From: an uncultured Aquimarina sp.
GTDB lineage: Bacteria > Bacteroidota > Bacteroidia > Flavobacteriales > Flavobacteriaceae
Reading direction: 5' to 3'
Assembly (NCBI RefSeq): GCF_947500065.1
Contig: NZ_CANMQT010000016.1
Location: forward strand, 1-64,000
DNA length: 64,000 nucleotides
Part shown: piece by piece, positions 1-24,091 of the stretch
How the letters are laid out: the number at the start of each line of letters is the position of its first letter
Position numbering within the stretch: position 1 is the first letter of the stretch
Program-made: the position numbers and the translations under genes
Notes under the pieces: generated by a model
Database searches by the model: none
The model's input: only the letters and a program-made list of their open reading frames with translations
What the model was told of the DNA's origin: nothing

Positions 1-74
1 TATCAGAATAAAACTCCATAATTCCAGCGTATCCCTCCGAAAAAATTGTCCGATCAAAATGGACAATTGCACCT

Positions 75-134
75 AACGTTGCTTGTATGTTGCGTTTGCT
101 TCCCGAAGGGAGCATATGCAATATACAACCTGTT
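75..134 (-). repeat. attC-like site, family C (60 bp), copy C3
   Basis: AACGTTGCTTGTATGTTGCG...GCAATATACAACCTGTT; imperfect inverted repeat, 60 bp from AAC to GTT. Confidence 0.75.
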
Positions 135-148
135 ATGTCTTTTTTATT

Positions 149-730
149 TTATTCAAATAGTTGTTTCATCTCTTCATTCGCTGAGTTTTCAGCAAGCTTT
201 TCGCCCAAACTCCGTATTTCATTTTCCCAATTTTTCCATTGTTCACTATTAGGGTTGTTAACGGAAATTTGAGTCTCAATATTTCTTGCAATCACATTAT
301 ATTCATAAGATACTCCGTCAAGAGCTATTCCGTTATTTGCAGTAAACAATTCTAGGTCATTAACCTTCCAAACAGGATCATTAATTCCGTTAATTTGCTC
401 CTCAAAATGAAGCTCTCTCACCTTTCCTTTTGAGTTATAAAGAAAGATACCCTGAATTAGTTTTTCAGGATTTTTAATGCCTCGGAACTCACTTTCGTTA
501 AATTTTATGGTAATTAAACCTCCAAAACCTACAAATGACCTACTTATTTTGGCAATCCAAATGTAATCAACTTCTATTTCGTTATCTCTCCAACCTTTAT
601 CATTTCTTATTGTATGCCCTCCGCTATAAAGTCCGTTTAATCCAAATTTAAGAGCAAGAGATTTTTTTACAGTTTGGTTAAATTGAAAAGTATTTAACTC
701 ATAAGATTGTTTTGTTTCTTCTCTACTCAT
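149..730 (-). CDS. Cassette-borne hypothetical protein
   Basis: 193-aa ORF between attC-like sites C3 and B1. Confidence 0.7.
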   Translation of the reverse strand: MSREETKQSYELNTFQFNQTVKKSLALKFGLNGLYSGGHTIRNDKGWRDNEIEVDYIWIAKISRSFVGFGGLITIKFNESEFRGIKNPEKLIQGIFLYNSKGKVRELHFEEQINGINDPVWKVNDLELFTANNGIALDGVSYEYNVIARNIETQISVNNPNSEQWKNWENEIRSLGEKLAENSANEEMKQLFE

Positions 731-747
731 TTTTTGTAATTAGACAT

Positions 748-910
748 AACGTTTAATATATGTGTCGTAGCAGGGCAAAATGTTACCCAATTATCGACAA
801 AAACTGCGCATTGGTTGCTAACTTTTACATTCTGCAAGCATTGCGCTTTACCAAAAATACAAGAACCATTCGATTGATCACTTAGCTGCTATGACCACAT
901 ATATATTGTT
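748..910 (-). repeat. attC-like site, family B, copy B1
   Basis: AACGTTTAATATATGTGTCGTAGCAG...CTGCTATGACCACATATATATTGTT; outer arms complementary with one bulged base. Confidence 0.75.
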
Positions 911-920
911 GTAACCAGTT

Positions 921-1598
921 TTATATTACTGATTTTCTTGATATGTTCGATAGACTTGTATTTCCTTGCTTTATTAGTCTCTTAGCAACTTCTTTTCTTC
1001 CTTTTCCGTCATGTTCATCTACATATTTTGATTCTTCTATGGTCAATAGTTTTACATTCACAAATAATATTTCTTCAAGGCTCAACTTTAACCTATTTGG
1101 AACGTATTCAGATGGCAGTCCTAACAATAATCCAATTTTTTCCTTTTCTTCATTCATTTCATCTGGAAAAGGAACATTAAAGGCATCTGTAGAAATATAG
1201 GTATGGTCTTTTATTGAATAAAGAACGTTAGGATTATTTGCACAAATTTGGCTGGCTTTGTATAGCAATGAAAATTGCCATGAATTTTTAGCCTCATCTA
1301 TATTATTCCATTTTTCATTGCATTCTACAAATAACTCAAGACCAAGACCATTATATTCGAAATGGTCAGGATTATTATCTCTGTCAGAATAGGGGTCACT
1401 TAATCCATCACTTGCAAATATGGTTCCACTTTCAGTTTTTATCATTAAGAATGATTGTCTCAAACCTGGCCACTGAGGACCACCTAAAAAAGCAGGATTT
1501 ATAACATGCGATATCACATCCGAATTGACATCTCCAAGTTCTGACCAAAATTTTTCTCTTTCATTTAAAGATTTTTCAAAGTGTTCTTCAGTAGTCAT
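921..1598 (-). CDS. Cassette-borne protein, possibly suppressor-of-fused (SUFU)-like
   Basis: ORF 921-1679 trimmed to MTTEEHFEK (1598), because the longer start runs into the attC-like site; SUFU resemblance is by eye only. Confidence 0.5.
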   Translation of the reverse strand: MTTEEHFEKSLNEREKFWSELGDVNSDVISHVINPAFLGGPQWPGLRQSFLMIKTESGTIFASDGLSDPYSDRDNNPDHFEYNGLGLELFVECNEKWNNIDEAKNSWQFSLLYKASQICANNPNVLYSIKDHTYISTDAFNVPFPDEMNEEKEKIGLLLGLPSEYVPNRLKLSLEEILFVNVKLLTIEESKYVDEHDGKGRKEVAKRLIKQGNTSLSNISRKSVI

Positions 1599-1615
1599 AT
1601 TTATAAATTGGTTAC

Positions 1616-1777
1616 AACGTTTAATATATGTGTCGTAGCAGGGCAAAATGTTACCTTGTTTTTTGATATTTCTGCGCATTGGTTGCTAACTTTTCCATTC
1701 TGCAAGCATTGCGCCTTACCAAAAATACAAGAATCATTCGATTCAGCACTTAGTTGCTATGGCACATATATCGTGTT
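1616..1777 (-). repeat. attC-like site, family B, copy B2
   Basis: AACGTTTAATATATGTGTCGTAGCA...TGCTATGGCACATATATCGTGTT. Confidence 0.75.
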
Positions 1778-1803
1778 ATCAGCTTTTCTTTTTTTAAGAT
1801 TTG

Positions 1804-2265
1804 TTAGTCTTCACTTCTAAAACAGGTTATTAGTATATTTTCTTTATTAATAAACACTGTACTTATATCAAAAGTATTTTCCGTTAATGGGTTCCAACTT
1901 GATCCATTCTCATTTGACCTCCATTGATTGTTAAACCAATTTGAATAACAAAAAGAGTCATTATTAAATTTATTAAGCAGTTCCGTATGAAATTTTTTAG
2001 CTATCTCGGTTGGAGTTATTCTAGAAGAAGAATATGCAATGTCAAATTCTATTGAATCTAAAAGCAATTCAGAACATTTTAAGAATTCAATTGAGTTCCA
2101 TTTTTCTCCCAGTTCATTCCAGCCTTCAATTTTGCAAATTTCGTCAAGTTTTGATATTTGATTTTTTTCGATAGATAAATCTATATCAGATATAGAGTAT
2201 AGATATGCATTTCCCCAAATATATTCACTCATATTTAATTCTTCGAATATATCTTTTTTATCCAT
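1804..2265 (-). CDS. Cassette-borne hypothetical protein
   Basis: 153-aa acidic ORF between attC-like sites. Confidence 0.65.
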   Translation of the reverse strand: MDKKDIFEELNMSEYIWGNAYLYSISDIDLSIEKNQISKLDEICKIEGWNELGEKWNSIEFLKCSELLLDSIEFDIAYSSSRITPTEIAKKFHTELLNKFNNDSFCYSNWFNNQWRSNENGSSWNPLTENTFDISTVFINKENILITCFRSED

Positions 2266-2283
2266 ATACTTTTAATTGCTGAT

Positions 2284-2343
2284 AACGTTTCTTGTATGTT
2301 GCGTTTGCCTGCCGAAGGCGACATATGCAATATACAAATTGTT
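2284..2343 (-). repeat. attC-like site, family C (60 bp), copy C1
   Basis: AACGTTTCTTGTATGTTGCGTTTGCCTGCCGAAGGCGACATATGCAATATACAAATTGTT. Confidence 0.78.
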
Positions 2344-2347
2344 GTAC

Positions 2348-3145
2348 TTAGTGATTTTTTAATTTCAGCACGATTTTATTATTTCCAAGTAAAAAATAGT
2401 CAGTTTTATTATCTCGCACAAATTCGGTCAGTATTAATTCCTCGTTTTCAAATTTCCAATTGAATTGTTTACGTTCTTTACTCATGGAGTTTACCAGTGT
2501 CACAACATCCATATTTTTATGAGGATGGCTTGTACCAAAATAATTCCTCACTTCGTACTTGTCGAAGTCTTTAAAGTTTTTCAATTTTCCATTTTTTTCG
2601 AATATCACATTCGTACTACTTTTTAGGTTAGCGTATGTTCCCGCAATTAGATTTTCATTAAAGTAATTTGTTATGCTTGAACTTATTTTATGTACTCTAT
2701 CTTGGTTTTCAAGAAGACTTTTTAAATCATTCCTTTTACCGAAAACATATTTTGTTGAATCAATTCTTTCCTGATTGGGGAACTGAGTTAATAATAGTTT
2801 ATCTTTTTCTTTAAATAATGCATACTTTCCTCCAAAGGAATTAAATACAGCTAGAGTATCAGAGTTGTAATTCAGTTTGTAATTCAATTCTATAATAGAA
2901 CCATAACTTTTTAATGAATCGTTTTTTATTTCCAAAAGAATCGCAAACCAAGTTGGTGGTTGCAATCTATATTTAGCAATTTGTTTATCAGCAAGTATAT
3001 TGTCAAAATAATTGTTTAGCCCCCAAACACCATTTAATTCGGAAACATTCGATTTGGGTGTTTGTAATTCAACCCTTTCTTTTTTTTGTTTTGAATTACA
3101 GTTCAAACAAAGGAAAATTATTAATATGTAAATTGCGTTTCTCAT
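2348..3145 (-). CDS. Cassette-borne putative lipoprotein
   Basis: Start trimmed to MRNAIYILIIFLCLNCNSK (lipobox-like Cys); upstream ORF portion lies in the attC-like site. Confidence 0.65.
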   Translation of the reverse strand: MRNAIYILIIFLCLNCNSKQKKERVELQTPKSNVSELNGVWGLNNYFDNILADKQIAKYRLQPPTWFAILLEIKNDSLKSYGSIIELNYKLNYNSDTLAVFNSFGGKYALFKEKDKLLLTQFPNQERIDSTKYVFGKRNDLKSLLENQDRVHKISSSITNYFNENLIAGTYANLKSSTNVIFEKNGKLKNFKDFDKYEVRNYFGTSHPHKNMDVVTLVNSMSKERKQFNWKFENEELILTEFVRDNKTDYFLLGNNKIVLKLKNH

Positions 3146-3152
3146 TAAGTAC

Positions 3153-3316
3153 AACGCCAAATATATGAATCGGAGCAAGGCAAGCAAGCCTGAACCAATC
3201 GATCTATCTGCGCATTTTTATTTCTTGATTAATTTATAAAAATCTAGCGCCATTGCAAAAAGGAAATGACCATTCGATCTAACACTAAACTTTGCTCTGA
3301 TTTTATATATAATGTT
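3153..3316 (-). repeat. attC-like site, family A, copy A1
   Basis: AACGCCAAATATATGAATCGGAGCAAGGC...TTTGCTCTGATTTTATATATAATGTT. Confidence 0.78.
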
Positions 3317-3325
3317 GTAGGGAGT

Positions 3326-3778
3326 TTATTTTTTCAGGAGATTTTCAAATTTACGTGGACTATTACTTTCAAATTCCCAATCAATAATTGGTTTTGGAAA
3401 TTCTATATACCAATTATCTTTTATTAATTTATGGTTTATAATCCAATCATATTTATGATCTCCAATCATTTCAAATTCCGCATGAATAGTTACGTCAAAC
3501 CAAAACAATTTTGTTAAAAGTTCTTCAAATTTTTCAATCCACAAATGCCATTCATATTCCAGAGTTCTGTAACTCGCTCCAAATGTTATTATCTGATCTC
3601 TAAAAATTCCTTGTTCGTTTGGTACTGAAAACATACTTCGATTTATCCAAGGAAATTCCGAATCATTTTCCGGTAAACTATTTATTATCTCAATATTCAT
3701 TCTATGCAACTTATAATAGTCTTCAGTTTTCCATGTCGCTCCGTTTATTCTTCCGTATATTATAGTATGATGTGCCAT
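3326..3778 (-). CDS. Cassette-borne hypothetical protein
   Basis: 150-aa ORF between attC-like sites A1 and A2. Confidence 0.65.
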   Translation of the reverse strand: MAHHTIIYGRINGATWKTEDYYKLHRMNIEIINSLPENDSEFPWINRSMFSVPNEQGIFRDQIITFGASYRTLEYEWHLWIEKFEELLTKLFWFDVTIHAEFEMIGDHKYDWIINHKLIKDNWYIEFPKPIIDWEFESNSPRKFENLLKK

Positions 3779-3795
3779 TTTGTTTAATTACCTAC

Positions 3796-3957
3796 AACGC
3801 CAAATATATGAATCGGAGCAAGGCAAGTAAGCCAGAACCAATCGATTTATCTGCGCATTTTTGTTTCTTGTTTAATTTATAAAAATCTAGCGCCATTGCA
3901 AAAAGAAAATTACCTTTCGATCTAGCATTAAATTGCTCTGATTTCATATATAATGTT
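3796..3957 (-). repeat. attC-like site, family A, copy A2
   Basis: AACGCCAAATATATGAATCGGAGCA...TGCTCTGATTTCATATATAATGTT. Confidence 0.8.
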
Positions 3958-3981
3958 AGCAATTTTTTATTTAAGACGCCA

Positions 3982-4323
3982 CTATTCAGTCACTTTCATT
4001 TTTAAGAGTCTTATAGTTTGACTAAATTCGGAATTCTGTTTAGGTGAAGTCTTATATGTCCAATTTCCTCGGTTTTTTAGTATTATTTTCAGAACCCAAG
4101 GGTCATTCTTAGAAAATATTTGAGCAGTTAGAGAGGTTAACATATAAAGTTTTGTCCACCAATTGTTATTTGGATCATAATGCTCTATATCTTTAATGTT
4201 TGAATATTTGAAAGTTCTAAATTCCGAATAATCAATTGCTTTAATCTCAACATGATCAGTCCAAATTTTTATTAGAGGGTATCCTTTTTCATCTAATACA
4301 AGTGCTTCATTTTCCATTAGCAA
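3982..4323 (-). CDS. Cassette-borne hypothetical protein (identical copy at 7113-7454)
   Basis: 113-aa translation identical to the second copy. Confidence 0.7.
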   Translation of the reverse strand: MLMENEALVLDEKGYPLIKIWTDHVEIKAIDYSEFRTFKYSNIKDIEHYDPNNNWWTKLYMLTSLTAQIFSKNDPWVLKIILKNRGNWTYKTSPKQNSEFSQTIRLLKMKVTE

Positions 4324-4327
4324 TGTT

Positions 4328-4786
4328 TTATTCCTTTAATTCGTGCCAACCGGATTTCGCATTCATTCCATATCTTTTCAAGGTGATTTCTTTTCTTTTG
4401 AATCTCAATTCAACTAATGCTGCGATATTTTCTTTTCCATTCATCCATACCAATTCATTATCTACTAATTCCTTAATTAGTTCAATTTTTAATTCATCTG
4501 AACTAAGTTTCGTGTTGTTTTCATAACTCAAAAGACAGGATGTTCCATCCATATAAACAATGATTTGAAGTTTAAGTTTACCTCTTAGTTTTTGTTGGGC
4601 ATCATTTGTTATATGTTTAGTTAGCAGCTTTATTAATTCATTTTTATCTTTTTTTGCGGTTTCAATTTCACTCTCTAAAGCAAACCTCTTGGTGTTACAA
4701 CCTTCAAATTTTTCTTCATAAATATTTTGAGAGTATGAGTATAAAGAAACCAAAATAGAGAAGAGTAATAGGTTTTTTTTAATCAT
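4328..4786 (-). CDS. Cassette-borne secreted hypothetical protein (identical copy at 7459-7917)
   Basis: 152 aa; signal peptide-like MIKKNLLLFSILVSLYSYSQ. Confidence 0.72.
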   Translation of the reverse strand: MIKKNLLLFSILVSLYSYSQNIYEEKFEGCNTKRFALESEIETAKKDKNELIKLLTKHITNDAQQKLRGKLKLQIIVYMDGTSCLLSYENNTKLSSDELKIELIKELVDNELVWMNGKENIAALVELRFKRKEITLKRYGMNAKSGWHELKE

Positions 4787-4803
4787 AATATTGAATTATT
4801 GCT

Positions 4804-4968
4804 AACGCCAAATATATGAATCGGAGCAAGGCAAACGAGCCAGGACCAATTGATCTATCTGCGCATTTTTATTTCTTGTTTAATTTATAAAAATCTAGCG
4901 CCATCACAAAAAGGAAATAACCTTTCGATCTAGCACTGAACTTTTGCTCTGATTTCATATATAATGTT
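4804..4968 (-). repeat. attC-like site, family A, copy A3
   Basis: AACGCCAAATATATGAATCGGAGCA...TTGCTCTGATTTCATATATAATGTT. Confidence 0.78.
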
Positions 4969-4983
4969 ACAGGTAGGCATTTT

Positions 4984-5490
4984 TTAACAAGATGTCCAAT
5001 AACTGAATTTTATTAATTTTCCATTATTGATTTCAAGCACTATTCCGTCGTCTCTCTTTTCGTGATGAACACTAAATGAGCCATTTAATTGACCTTTATC
5101 TATCCGATCTTTGATTTGTTTTCCAAATATTTCCGCAAGCGTATTCAATTCCGTTTCACAATTCAATTTATGTTTTCCATAAACTAGTTCAACAGAGTTA
5201 TCATTCTCAAAATCAATCTTTTCAATTAGATATTTTTCTTTTTCATTTCCGGTAAATTTCACCTTTTCATAATCAAGAGTAAAGTATTTGACTCCTTGCC
5301 ATTCAGAAGATAGCCCTCCGCAATCATAGTTCGGTTCAAATTCTCGGTTTGGATTCCCAAATTTTTCGACAATTTTTGATTTCGAAGAAAAGAATTTGAG
5401 TTCATTGAATTCAAACTTATCAAAATCCAAGTTCTGTCCGAAACCTATTTGAGTTGATATTAATAATATTAAGGTATGATATATTTTCAT
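4984..5490 (-). CDS. Cassette-borne secreted hypothetical protein
   Basis: 168 aa; signal peptide-like MKIYHTLILLISTQIGFGQ. Confidence 0.7.
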   Translation of the reverse strand: MKIYHTLILLISTQIGFGQNLDFDKFEFNELKFFSSKSKIVEKFGNPNREFEPNYDCGGLSSEWQGVKYFTLDYEKVKFTGNEKEKYLIEKIDFENDNSVELVYGKHKLNCETELNTLAEIFGKQIKDRIDKGQLNGSFSVHHEKRDDGIVLEINNGKLIKFSYWTSC

Positions 5491-5510
5491 TATTTATTCT
5501 GCTTACCTGT

Positions 5511-5570
5511 AACGTCTCTTGTATGTTGCGTTTGCCTGCCGAAGGCGGCATATGCAATATACAAATTGTT
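5511..5570 (-). repeat. attC-like site, family C (60 bp), copy C2
   Basis: AACGTCTCTTGTATGTTGCG...GCAATATACAAATTGTT, exactly 60 bp. Confidence 0.78.
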
Positions 5571-5580
5571 ACCACCTTTT

Positions 5581-6909
5581 TTATATTTCGTTTTCAAGTA
5601 GGTAAAAATAGTTTTTGAGTCCATAAGAATATTTACTCTGATCAGAACCTAAAGTTTTGAATTCCTTTTTCAATACCTCTATTAAATCAGATTTTATATT
5701 TTTTCCTTCAATTTTTGCGCAGTTTAGTTTTACCCAATGAATTTTTGAAGAATTAGGAAAGTCTATCAATGCTTTTTCCAAATCAGGGTTATCATATTTG
5801 TTTTTATCTGCTAATCCGATAAAATAGCTTATCGCGAATTTCTCACTTTGGTATTCGTTCCATCCTTTTTTGTCTGTTTGTTCAGAAACGTGTCCAGTTG
5901 CAACTGATTCTAGGTATGCATAAATATTTAAAAGCTCTTCATCTTTATATTTGTCAGCTAAATCAATCATTTCTTGTCCTCTCTTTTCAAAGAATTCTTT
6001 TTCATCTAATAATCTATTTATAAATGAAATTCTTAGTAAATCAGAAGCTACTTTTCCATTAACGGGCATTTGGTTATTATCAAGAATCAATTTCGAATTT
6101 AGTAATGCTGTTTTAATAGAATCTTTAGGACTTGATTTTTTAGAGAGGTGTTTGATTTTGTTATATGCAGATAGTTGTAAGTATTCTTTACTGTCAGAAC
6201 CAAAAGTACTTTTAATTGTATTTATATCTTTTTCTAAAAAGTATTCTTGGATATTATTATTCCACCAATCTAATTCCCAATTCATATCTAGGAAAATCAA
6301 CTCGTATGCACTTTTAGAATCCTTAGATTTAGTTTTTACTATTAAATCTGACCGTTTTTTAATTTGATCGACTTGACCGTGAATGATATAAATAGCTTTG
6401 TCAATTCCAGTATGATTTTTGGGATGATTTGCTTTTTTCCAATGTTCAATTGCTTTTAAATAATTATCTATATTTAAATAGCATTCACTTAACCAAACAT
6501 CAACTCTATAATCCGTGTCTTTTGTCTGTTTATAAATTTCATAATGTTTAATAGCCGTTTTATAATCTCCAATTCGATGACTTTCTATTGCATATTCTAA
6601 ATTGAAATTTAATTCATTTGGATATTTCTCATAAGCAGATTTATGTAAATCATAAGAGACTTTTGAATCAATATTGTATAATGCTCCACCAATCAGATAT
6701 TTTTGGTATTCATTTGTGGCTTTAGAAACTAATTCATTTATACACTCGTCACAGTCTTTATTTACTAAACAATTTGAAAAGTACTTTAAAGCAGGAGTTA
6801 TTTCAGTTTGAGCTTTTTTTATTTTTTCTGCATTGTTTTCAGTATCAACTTGAGCATTACAGTTAAAGAACAAAATATTAAGGAATATGAATAATAATTT
6901 TTTTCTCAT
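5581..6909 (-). CDS. Cassette-borne TPR-like lipoprotein
   Basis: Start trimmed to MRKKLLFIFLNILFFNCNAQ; helical TPR-like repeats. Confidence 0.65.
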   Translation of the reverse strand: MRKKLLFIFLNILFFNCNAQVDTENNAEKIKKAQTEITPALKYFSNCLVNKDCDECINELVSKATNEYQKYLIGGALYNIDSKVSYDLHKSAYEKYPNELNFNLEYAIESHRIGDYKTAIKHYEIYKQTKDTDYRVDVWLSECYLNIDNYLKAIEHWKKANHPKNHTGIDKAIYIIHGQVDQIKKRSDLIVKTKSKDSKSAYELIFLDMNWELDWWNNNIQEYFLEKDINTIKSTFGSDSKEYLQLSAYNKIKHLSKKSSPKDSIKTALLNSKLILDNNQMPVNGKVASDLLRISFINRLLDEKEFFEKRGQEMIDLADKYKDEELLNIYAYLESVATGHVSEQTDKKGWNEYQSEKFAISYFIGLADKNKYDNPDLEKALIDFPNSSKIHWVKLNCAKIEGKNIKSDLIEVLKKEFKTLGSDQSKYSYGLKNYFYLLENEI

Positions 6910-6926
6910 TTTTGGTAATTGGTGGT

Positions 6927-7088
6927 AACGCCAAATATATGAATCGGAGCAAGGCAAGTAAGCCAGAACCAATCGATTTATCTGCGCATTTTTGTTTCTT
7001 GTTTAATTTATAAAAATCTAGCGCCATTGCAAAAAGAAAATTACCTTTCGATCTAGCATTAAATTGCTCTGATTTCATATATAATGTT
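6927..7088 (-). repeat. attC-like site, family A, copy A4
   Basis: Second copy of A2, offset 3131. Confidence 0.8.
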
Positions 7089-7112
7089 AGCAATTTTTTA
7101 TTTAAGACGCCA

Positions 7113-7454
7113 CTATTCAGTCACTTTCATTTTTAAGAGTCTTATAGTTTGACTAAATTCGGAATTCTGTTTAGGTGAAGTCTTATATGTCCAATTTCCT
7201 CGGTTTTTTAGTATTATTTTCAGAACCCAAGGGTCATTCTTAGAAAATATTTGAGCAGTTAGAGAGGTTAACATATAAAGTTTTGTCCACCAATTGTTAT
7301 TTGGATCATAATGCTCTATATCTTTAATGTTTGAATATTTGAAAGTTCTAAATTCCGAATAATCAATTGCTTTAATCTCAACATGATCAGTCCAAATTTT
7401 TATTAGAGGGTATCCTTTTTCATCTAATACAAGTGCTTCATTTTCCATTAGCAA
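7113..7454 (-). CDS. Cassette-borne hypothetical protein (copy of 3982-4323)
   Basis: Identical translation. Confidence 0.7.
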   Translation of the reverse strand: MLMENEALVLDEKGYPLIKIWTDHVEIKAIDYSEFRTFKYSNIKDIEHYDPNNNWWTKLYMLTSLTAQIFSKNDPWVLKIILKNRGNWTYKTSPKQNSEFSQTIRLLKMKVTE

Positions 7455-7458
7455 TGTT

Positions 7459-7917
7459 TTATTCCTTTAATTCGTGCCAACCGGATTTCGCATTCATTCC
7501 ATATCTTTTCAAGGTGATTTCTTTTCTTTTGAATCTCAATTCAACTAATGCTGCGATATTTTCTTTTCCATTCATCCATACCAATTCATTATCTACTAAT
7601 TCCTTAATTAGTTCAATTTTTAATTCATCTGAACTAAGTTTCGTGTTGTTTTCATAACTCAAAAGACAGGATGTTCCATCCATATAAACAATGATTTGAA
7701 GTTTAAGTTTACCTCTTAGTTTTTGTTGGGCATCATTTGTTATATGTTTAGTTAGCAGCTTTATTAATTCATTTTTATCTTTTTTTGCGGTTTCAATTTC
7801 ACTCTCTAAAGCAAACCTCTTGGTGTTACAACCTTCAAATTTTTCTTCATAAATATTTTGAGAGTATGAGTATAAAGAAACCAAAATAGAGAAGAGTAAT
7901 AGGTTTTTTTTAATCAT
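7459..7917 (-). CDS. Cassette-borne secreted hypothetical protein (copy of 4328-4786)
   Basis: Identical translation. Confidence 0.72.
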   Translation of the reverse strand: MIKKNLLLFSILVSLYSYSQNIYEEKFEGCNTKRFALESEIETAKKDKNELIKLLTKHITNDAQQKLRGKLKLQIIVYMDGTSCLLSYENNTKLSSDELKIELIKELVDNELVWMNGKENIAALVELRFKRKEITLKRYGMNAKSGWHELKE

Positions 7918-7934
7918 AATATTGAATTATTGCT

Positions 7935-7986
7935 AACAATTGTATATAGTTACAAAAGGTAACTATATATCTATTTTGTGAGGAGG
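7935..7986 (-). other. Candidate attI-like recombination site
   Basis: Perfect 11-bp inverted repeat TATATAGTTAC-AAAAG-GTAACTATATA (7943-7969) between the recombinase stop and the AAC/GTT of the first cassette. Confidence 0.65.
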
Positions 7987-9126
7987 CTAATTTAGTAAAT
8001 CTTTTATGCCTTTGTAGGATTTTATTGCTACATGAGTATATATTTCTGTAGTTTTAGTTGATTTATGACCTAATAATGCTTGGATATATCTCAGGTCAGT
8101 GCCCTCCTCCAAAAGATGTGTAGCAAAACTGTGCCTTAGCATATGAGGAGATACTTTTTTTATAATAGATACTTTCAGAGCAGCTTCTTTTACCACCTTT
8201 AAGATACTCGAAGGACTATATGGACTCCCAGTATTTGCCCCTTCAAATAAATATACTTTCGGCTTATAGGCTTTGTAATAACTTCTTAAAAGAAGCAGTA
8301 CACTCTTGTTAAGTATCGTGTATCTGTCATGATTTCCTTTAGCCTGTTTTACTTTGATTAATAATCGTTTACTATCAATATCCTCTGGTTTTAAATGTAA
8401 TATCTCACTTCTGCGAAGCCCTGAAGAATATAAAAGACTAATAATACATTTATGTTTCAGATTAGTAGTGGCTTCAATCATTTTTATAATATCACCTTTT
8501 GCAAGTATATCAGGCAGTTGAATAGATTTTCTTGGTCGTTCAATACTATAAAATCGATTTGGCATTCCCATAACTACTTCATAATAAAACTTAATACTAT
8601 TAATAGCCTGATTTATATAACTGTCAGATTTGTTTCTATGAACCAAAGATTGTAGATAGTTCCGTACCTCGTCTTCAGATAGCTCGATGATTTCTTTATC
8701 CGGATACGTGTTTATGAATTTTTCGAATTGAGAAATATAAGTTTTACAAGTACTTACCGAGTATCGTTTAAGCTCTAGTTTTAATAAATATGCTTCTGGA
8801 ACATACTTAAAAGAATTTGTCTTAGAACGATTCCGATACCAATTAATATCCGGCAATGCATTTTCTCTAATCACCTTTTCCTTGAAAAAGAAGTTACAGT
8901 TGATGCGGGCTATCCCCCTAAATTTGTTGAAAATCAAATCTAAATTTTTCTTGGTATTCATAATATATACCATTCCGTATTGATTGCTCCACTTGGGATT
9001 AGGTAATTCTTTGATTAAAGCCTGAATTACTTTATCAGGATAGAATTGTAAACCTATCATTTTCTGTTGCTTAATCAATAAGTGCTTAAGAGTAATATGC
9101 TTATTAATAGGATTCATGTGTGTCAA
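7987..9126 (-). CDS. Tyrosine recombinase, integron-integrase-like in context
   Basis: LLYSSGLRRSEI...HMLRHSFATHLLEEGTDLRYIQALLGHKSTKTTEIYTH: catalytic Arg, HxLRH, LGH and TxxxYTH motifs; N-terminal SAM-like domain. Confidence 0.95.
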   Translation of the reverse strand: MTHMNPINKHITLKHLLIKQQKMIGLQFYPDKVIQALIKELPNPKWSNQYGMVYIMNTKKNLDLIFNKFRGIARINCNFFFKEKVIRENALPDINWYRNRSKTNSFKYVPEAYLLKLELKRYSVSTCKTYISQFEKFINTYPDKEIIELSEDEVRNYLQSLVHRNKSDSYINQAINSIKFYYEVVMGMPNRFYSIERPRKSIQLPDILAKGDIIKMIEATTNLKHKCIISLLYSSGLRRSEILHLKPEDIDSKRLLIKVKQAKGNHDRYTILNKSVLLLLRSYYKAYKPKVYLFEGANTGSPYSPSSILKVVKEAALKVSIIKKVSPHMLRHSFATHLLEEGTDLRYIQALLGHKSTKTTEIYTHVAIKSYKGIKDLLN

Positions 9127-9660: not shown

Positions 9661-9960
9661 CAGATTCTTTAAAACCCACTACCATAAGTGGGGGAGGGGT
9701 ACTTATACAAGTGGGGGCATACGTGTCAGAATACGGTTAGGGGTACTTGTACTAGTGGGTGTATGAGTGTTAGAACACAGTTAGGGGCACTTCTATAAGT
9801 GGGTACTCCTACCCAAAAGGTTGTCTAGGGGTACTTCAAACAGAGGCATGCCTATACCTAGACACAAGTGGCACCTGTGTTAGAGCTAAGCGTTACTTCT
9901 ATTTGAAGTACCCAGTGGGTACTGTAGAGGTGGGTAGGGGGTACTTATGAAGTACCCTAA
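9661..9960. repeat. G-rich degenerate tandem/palindromic repeat tract
   Basis: Recurrent (T)AGGGGTACTT.....AGTGGG units; hairpins AGTACCC-AGT-GGGTACT (9907-9923) and GGGTACTT-ATG-AAGTACCC (9939-9957). Confidence 0.65.
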
Positions 9961-23874: not shown

Positions 23875-23898
23875 TTAATTATTTTTTTGATGACTTAC

Positions 23899-24091
23899 AA
23901 TGATTAATATATGTGTCGTAGCTGAGTAAAATGTTACCTAGCTTTTCGATTTATCCCTGCCTACCTGTCGGATGGCAGGCAGGTGCGCATTTTTATTTCT
24001 TGTTCAATTTATAAAAATCCAGCGCCAATGCAAAAAGGAAATGACCTTTCGATCTAGCACTAAACTTTACTCTGGTTTCATATATAATGTT
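23899..24091 (-). repeat. attC-like site, chimeric B/A (F1), degenerate
   Basis: Family B left half (AATGATTAATATATGTGTCGTAGC), CCTGCC... hairpin insert, then family A right half ending CATATATAATGTT; AAC changed to AAT. Confidence 0.65.

Follow-up and report, generated by a model that had tools for sequence, protein, structure and literature searches.

A probable chromosomal integron of a distinct, I2-less class in an uncultured Aquimarina sp.

The window analyzed here is a stretch of 64,000 nucleotides from an uncultured Aquimarina sp. (contig NZ_CANMQT010000016.1, positions 1 to 64,000; assembly GCF_947500065.1, 6.57 Mb in 69 contigs). Positions 1–7937 (minus strand) form an array of nine co-directional gene cassettes, truncated by the left end of the contig, and a tyrosine recombinase gene lies directly upstream of the array in the cassette sense and points into the cassettes. 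Judged from its sequence, this locus is very probably a chromosomal integron of a distinct Bacteroidota class, in which the recombinase lacks the I2 insertion of integron integrases (IntI) and the folded strand of the recombination sites is marked by wobble pairs. The original prediction, made from positions 75–7088, had read the cassette ends as folded integron-type recombination sites. This reading is borne out by the complementarity between the start and the end of the same cassette, by an exact cassette copy running from GTT to GTT, and by arrays of such sites downstream of related recombinases in many genomes.

The sites and the elements beside them were as follows.
75–134, minus strand: attC-like site C1
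748–910, minus strand: attC-like site B1
1616–1777, minus strand: attC-like site B2, without bulge
2284–2343, minus strand: attC-like site C2
3153–3316, minus strand: attC-like site A1
3796–3957, minus strand: attC-like site A2
4804–4968, minus strand: attC-like site A3
5511–5570, minus strand: attC-like site C3
6927–7088, minus strand: attC-like site A4
3796–4806, minus strand: fourth cassette, with open reading frames (ORFs) 4328–4786 and 3982–4323 and site A2
6927–7937, minus strand: first cassette, with ORFs 7459–7917 and 7113–7454 and site A4; exact copy of 3796–4806
7935–7969, minus strand: attI-like site, with an 11-bp inverted repeat (7943–7953/7959–7969), a 5-nt spacer (7938–7942), and GTT at 7935–7937 (AAC on the plus strand)
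7987–9126, minus strand: tyrosine recombinase of 379 amino acids (aa), with a SAM-like and a catalytic domain and an extra N-terminal domain of ~100 aa, without the I2 insertion

Cassette boundaries and the candidate attI site

In all nine cassettes of the window, the start (GTT plus 5–7 nt) was complementary to the cassette's own end (the bases before AAC). Among the 81 mismatched start/end pairings, two reached at least 5 nt, as the identical ends of a duplicated cassette must give. Across all arrays, drawn from many genomes, complementarity of at least 6 nt to the own end was found in 100 of the 188 tested ends, compared to 2 of 188 with the start of the next cassette. As read from these bases, the own start and own end of a cassette are related as R' and R'' are in integrons.

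The duplicated cassette placed the cassette boundaries at the GTT triplet. Positions 3796–4806 and 6927–7937 were identical over 1011 nt, exactly from GTT to GTT, and their flanks were unrelated. The second copy (6927–7937) sits first in the array, adjoining the recombinase, which is where integrons insert new cassettes.

Most relatives of the recombinase showed the same order of elements beside the gene: the recombinase stop, then a palindrome, about 5 nt, and GTT. The palindrome varied in sequence among the relatives with its symmetry kept (40 distinct arms with at least 8 pairs), and its distance to GTT was mostly 4–6 nt. Similarity between genomes ran from the recombinase up to this GTT and then ended. 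We consider the palindrome-N5-GTT element beside the recombinase to be a candidate attI, the putative entry point of cassettes.

The 115 unique cassettes had a median length of 717 nt; the longest ORF was forward in 104 and reverse in 3, and 8 had no ORF of 60 aa. Past GTT and a 6–7-nt R box, the cassette starts (e.g., 7925–7937, minus strand) had a conserved A (98%) and then mostly T (GTT-N6-7-AAT). Opposite this A, the cassette end mostly had C, giving A·C on the top strand and G·T on the bottom strand.

Site geometry and site families

Within 75–7088, each of the nine sites had the form AAC-N3-stem...stem-N5-GTT in the cassette sense (minus strand), at every place where the original prediction had put it. 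When the spacers were left free, 3/5 was the top-scoring pair in six of the nine sites; for B2, C2, and C3, a marginal additional pair at the base of the stem let 2/4 score 0.3 higher, and 3/5 came next. The nine sites scored 13.7–18.5 on the better-folding strand, and dinucleotide-shuffled 64-kb windows gave 1–3 hits at a threshold of 12. Scanning of the top strand only yielded many false hits, whereas scanning of the bottom strand separated well. Stable outer stems, which the prediction had called for, were present on folding.

The asymmetry was also kept elsewhere, as had been anticipated: 43 of 54 non-redundant sites from other genomes, a set chained by cassette-end complementarity, were 3/5 or 3/6. 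The same code gave 2/6, 2/5, or 3/6 (spacers of 2–3/5–6) for 16 of 17 canonical attC of IntI arrays, which came mostly from other classes of the Bacteroidota phylum. Since canonical attC show the same asymmetry, it belongs to attC in general and does not set the Aquimarina sites apart. The idea that the three site families had converged on an N3/N5 peculiarity of their own does not survive this comparison, and the asymmetry was dropped as a hallmark of the Aquimarina-type system.

Contrary to what had been supposed, the three families were not all unrelated. Families A and B aligned over their full length (z = 7.2 against shuffles), whereas family C showed no similarity to A or to B (z = -0.8 and 0.2, respectively). 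On this alignment, families A and B are distantly related. Of the two explanations first offered, convergence and common descent, the latter holds for A and B; for C and for the relation to canonical attC, either may hold. One extra 5'-arm base was found in A1–A4 and B1 and none in B2, in agreement with the bulges described earlier.

Site lengths over all arrays fell into classes of ~60, 123, 163, and 186 nt. The lengths 60, 123, and 186 are spaced by 63, and stepwise growth of the loop may have produced them. At 23897–24091, a solitary degenerate site combined a B-like 3' arm with an A-like 5' arm and an inserted CCTGCCT...GGCAGGCAGG hairpin; it looks like a chimeric relic.

Stem wobbles and strand folding

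Pairs 1–6 of the L stem were Watson-Crick in 43 of 43 sites, with covariation. Pair 12 was an A·C mismatch on the top strand, and hence a G·T wobble on the bottom strand, in all nine window sites, in 50 of the 54 chained sites, and in 84 of 93 non-redundant sites, compared to none of the 17 canonical attC; the original prediction had made no mention of this mismatch. A·C was also found at pair 7 in 54 and at pair 8 in 13 of the 93 sites. The pair-12 mark, at position 18 from AAC, was likewise kept in arrays whose recombinases are more distant.

Bulges in the 5' arm were present in all 17 canonical attC (at least two in 14 of them), whereas only 25 of the 93 new sites had at least one and 3 had at least two. 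Two or more extrahelical bases on the R''-L'' arm, a defining feature of integron sites, are thus mostly lacking in the new sites. The first mark (a wobble in the new sites, an extrahelical base in canonical ones) was at stem position 7 in both, and the second was at 12 here, compared to about 14 in canonical sites.

Because the A·C (top) and G·T (bottom) pairs are fixed, the bottom strand is the better folder. In an orientation-blind scan, with orientation set from the recombinase, the bottom strand folded better in 125 non-redundant sites and the top strand in 10. The original prediction had ascribed strand choice to spacer asymmetry and extrahelical bases. Work on VCR sites contradicts the former, as an extrahelical G sets the strand there and the unpaired spacer affects efficiency only (Bouvier 2009, PMC2727003). 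The latter does not carry over to the Aquimarina-type sites, where such bases are uncommon and the constant strand-telling feature is A·C/G·T at fixed positions.

Recombinase

All six catalytic residues (RKHRHY: R238, K263, H328, R331, H354, and Y363) were present in the recombinase. Its match to the integron-integrase model TIGR02249 was split in two pieces and reached 184 bits, compared to a cut-off of 265. The interval that bears I2 measured 98 residues in 16 of 16 IntI, 56–58 residues in the Aquimarina recombinase and twenty relatives, and 56–64 residues in Xer-type proteins. The recombinase lacks I2, the additional domain that is specific to IntI and lies near patch III.

In a maximum-likelihood tree with unresolved deep branches, the recombinase family and IntI each formed a clade of their own (97/87 and 100/100, respectively), and neither was nested in the other. 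XerA was the best match in the Protein Data Bank (PDB) by sequence and by fold; with the AlphaFold model (pLDDT 81.6), the Foldseek matches to XerA and VchIntIA were about equal, with VchIntIA close behind. Separate Xer-like genes were present in the same Aquimarina genome.

The extra N-terminal domain (~100 residues) is absent from IntI, and a profile search of this domain against PDB sequences found nothing. In one relative, the domain matched HARP weakly (E = 0.032), and Foldseek gave a match to the SMARCAL1 HARP domain (E = 0.44); both are suggestive only and were not used as evidence. Residues 1–108 (8803–9126, minus strand) have the predicted order beta-beta-alpha-beta-beta-alpha-beta and are faintly HARP/DUF5710-like; this part is extended or shortened in distant relatives.

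Distribution

The closest relatives of the recombinase, 86% and 70–73% identical, were in named Aquimarina, by which the genome is judged to be a member of this genus. The same layout was found in Aquimarina, Gillisia, Arenibacter, Saonia, Acidiluteibacter, and other Bacteroidota families, down to 39–50% recombinase identity. A strong recombinase match was present in 77 of 396 sampled Bacteroidota genomes, and the sites stood in arrays, unlike the single dif-type site and the one conserved housekeeping copy of a Xer system.

Sites scoring at least 14 numbered 95 in 207 kb downstream of recombinases and 2 in 467 kb upstream, a roughly 100-fold enrichment. Repeat arrays break assemblies, so that many contigs are expected to stop shortly past the recombinase; many contigs indeed stopped within a few hundred bases of it. 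Site A occurred at 36 places in the source genome, on a dozen contigs. More site arrays were found on contigs C5, C26, C20, and C28 of this genome (loci L026, L027, L031, L034, and L039), with 17 sites in the first 20 kb of C5 and 11 in the 10-kb contig C26, and no such recombinase was found in those stretches. These stretches probably represent pieces of the same array or of different ones.

Canonical IntI above the cut-off was found in 1 of 295 sampled genomes of the class Bacteroidia, and in 84 of 297 sampled genomes of the phylum (loci L191–L220 and L223–L242, mostly in other Bacteroidota classes). Some IntI-bearing genomes (such as G061, G318, and G349) also carried a relative of the Aquimarina recombinase. 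Across Bacteroidota, the Aquimarina-type system gives the impression of an integron type that is widespread but has been overlooked. In the open-access literature on integrons in Aquimarina, Flavobacterium, and Bacteroidota and on Xer-like or integron-like cassette systems, we found no description of it, and an earlier description elsewhere is possible.

Cassette contents and flanking sequence

The other cassettes carried the following ORFs.
149–730, minus strand: 193 aa, no Pfam match
921–1604, minus strand: SUFU-family domain (PF05076, 27.1 bits, just above the cut-off of 25)
1804–2265, minus strand: 153 aa, no Pfam match
2348–3145, minus strand: 265 aa, no Pfam match
3326–3778, minus strand: 150 aa, no Pfam match
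4984–5490, minus strand: 168 aa, no Pfam match
5581–6909, minus strand: 442 aa, weak TPR-like match below the cut-off

Pfam searches of nine cassette proteins gave this single SUFU domain above the cut-off, the others having no match or sub-threshold matches. An Rfam scan of positions 1–8000 and a PADLOC analysis of the cassette proteins and the recombinase both gave zero matches. Upstream of the recombinase, at 9695–9782, a 44-nt unit was present in two tandem copies, 80% alike.

Proposed mechanism and alternative explanations

In the mechanism that we propose, the recombinase would bind each cassette end site through its bottom strand, folded as a hairpin. The R box (GTT plus 6–7 nt paired with the other end of the cassette) and the L stem would form two binding helices flanking the unpaired 3/5-nt spacer. 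Strand exchange would take place at GTT with a duplex attI (palindrome-N5-GTT) just downstream of the recombinase gene, and new cassettes would thus enter adjoining the recombinase. From the site sequences, we infer that recombination acts on the bottom strand in its folded form. The wobbles sit about where extrahelical bases sit, which makes them natural candidates for marking the strand. Those at pairs 12 and 7 would stand in for extrahelical bases, marking the strand and so the orientation of the cassette. Another part of the recombinase would then do the job of I2.

Current opinion credits one innovation, the I2 helix, with enabling a Xer-like enzyme to recombine single-stranded hairpins (PMC7790495). 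Our broader proposal, which we put forward tentatively and at slightly less than an even chance, is that the Aquimarina system is a second solution to folded single-strand cassette recombination. An I2-less recombinase would read two G·T wobbles at fixed stem positions, having evolved independently or representing a pre-I2 state, and in Bacteroidia this system would take the place of canonical IntI.

Several points weigh against an integron of this kind. The entire case is built on sequence. Complementarity linked no more than about half of the neighboring sites tested, probably owing to intervening sites missed by the scanner. Another origin of the exact duplicate is conceivable, but its GTT-to-GTT ends make this unlikely. 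With the outer stem alone, the bottom strand folded better in 51 of 54 sites, compared to 2 of 17 canonical attC, but this bias is not independent, since the chained sites were selected on bottom-strand score; the count of 125 versus 10 is independent. The A·C/G·T pairs could also be there for contacts between the protein and double-stranded DNA, and not for strand choice.

The alternative that survives best is an ordinary integron, whose IntI has lost I2 and which recombines class 1-style at ordinary attC. The spacer asymmetry equals that of canonical attC, the boundaries are CGTT and AAC, and both the 184-bit match to the integron-integrase model and the closeness of VchIntIA to XerA in the Foldseek comparison fit this explanation. 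We nevertheless regard it as unlikely, given that the recombinase family is not nested in the IntI clade of the tree, that the sites carry no extrahelical pair, and that the gene is co-directional with its array, whereas the canonical array examined (L232) is divergent from its own intI. In addition, deletion of I2 abolishes the activity of IntI1 (PMC7790495).

Xer-style action on double-stranded sites, with the hairpins in another role such as terminators or transcript-end protection, is still less probable. The catalytic core is as XerA-like as it is IntI-like, and the attI palindrome could bind two subunits as a duplex. However, a mechanism that works on double-stranded DNA offers no evident use for own-end complementarity of 6–7 cassette-specific bases. 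A hairpin function in RNA predicts the opposite strand bias, as the sense transcript has the top-strand sequence with its A·C mismatches and hence the weaker hairpin. Dispersed hairpin repeats of the REP or MITE type beside an unrelated recombinase would account for the site-like sequences on other contigs, some of them truncated or alone (23897–24091), but are highly improbable given the cassette-precise complementarity, the exact cassette copy, the enrichment downstream of recombinases in nearly uniform orientation, and the contigs that stop where repeat arrays predict.

On every sequence criterion examined, the Aquimarina array appears to behave as an integron; with I2 and the extrahelical bases both lacking, the system is not filed as an IntI integron. 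If a widespread class of I2-less integrons exists, I2 is dispensable for capturing cassettes on a folded strand, and a natural system without I2 makes the mechanism of strand choice testable. Such a class would also help to explain the near-absence of recognized integrons in Bacteroidetes proper, where a single complete integron, that of Salinibacter, was reported with IntegronFinder 2.0 (PMC9024848). With the pair-12 mark as a simple signature, many more arrays of uncharacterized genes could be located.

Comparison with known systems

I2-less relatives of the Aquimarina recombinase may already sit in the 'integron-like' subgroup of tyrosine recombinases, in which the IntI insertion is not fully conserved (Smyshlyaev 2021, PMC8138268). 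In the parts of that study consulted, the I2-less members have no stated link to cassette arrays or to a class of sites, unlike the family described here. Archaeal integrons, for comparison, were recognized partly through the I2 domain (PMC9668308).

With XerA, XerCD, and XerH, the Aquimarina recombinase shares the catalytic fold and a similar inter-patch length. Unlike the Xer recombinases, which use a single double-stranded dif site, it is associated with many foldable sites that bound cassettes.

The likeness to IntI integrons (class 1, the Vibrio superintegron, and sedentary chromosomal integrons) extends to cassette arrays with ORFs in one orientation, an attI beside the integrase, and cassette-specific complementary R boxes around GTT/AAC with C before GTT. 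It also includes the unpaired asymmetric spacer (canonical 2–3/5–6) and site sizes of about 60–190 nt. In contrast to IntI integrons, the recombinase has an extra N-terminal domain and no I2 insertion, the recombinase and cassettes are co-directional, attI adjoins the recombinase gene at its 3' end, and G·T wobbles at stem pairs 12 and 7 are found in place of two extrahelical bases.

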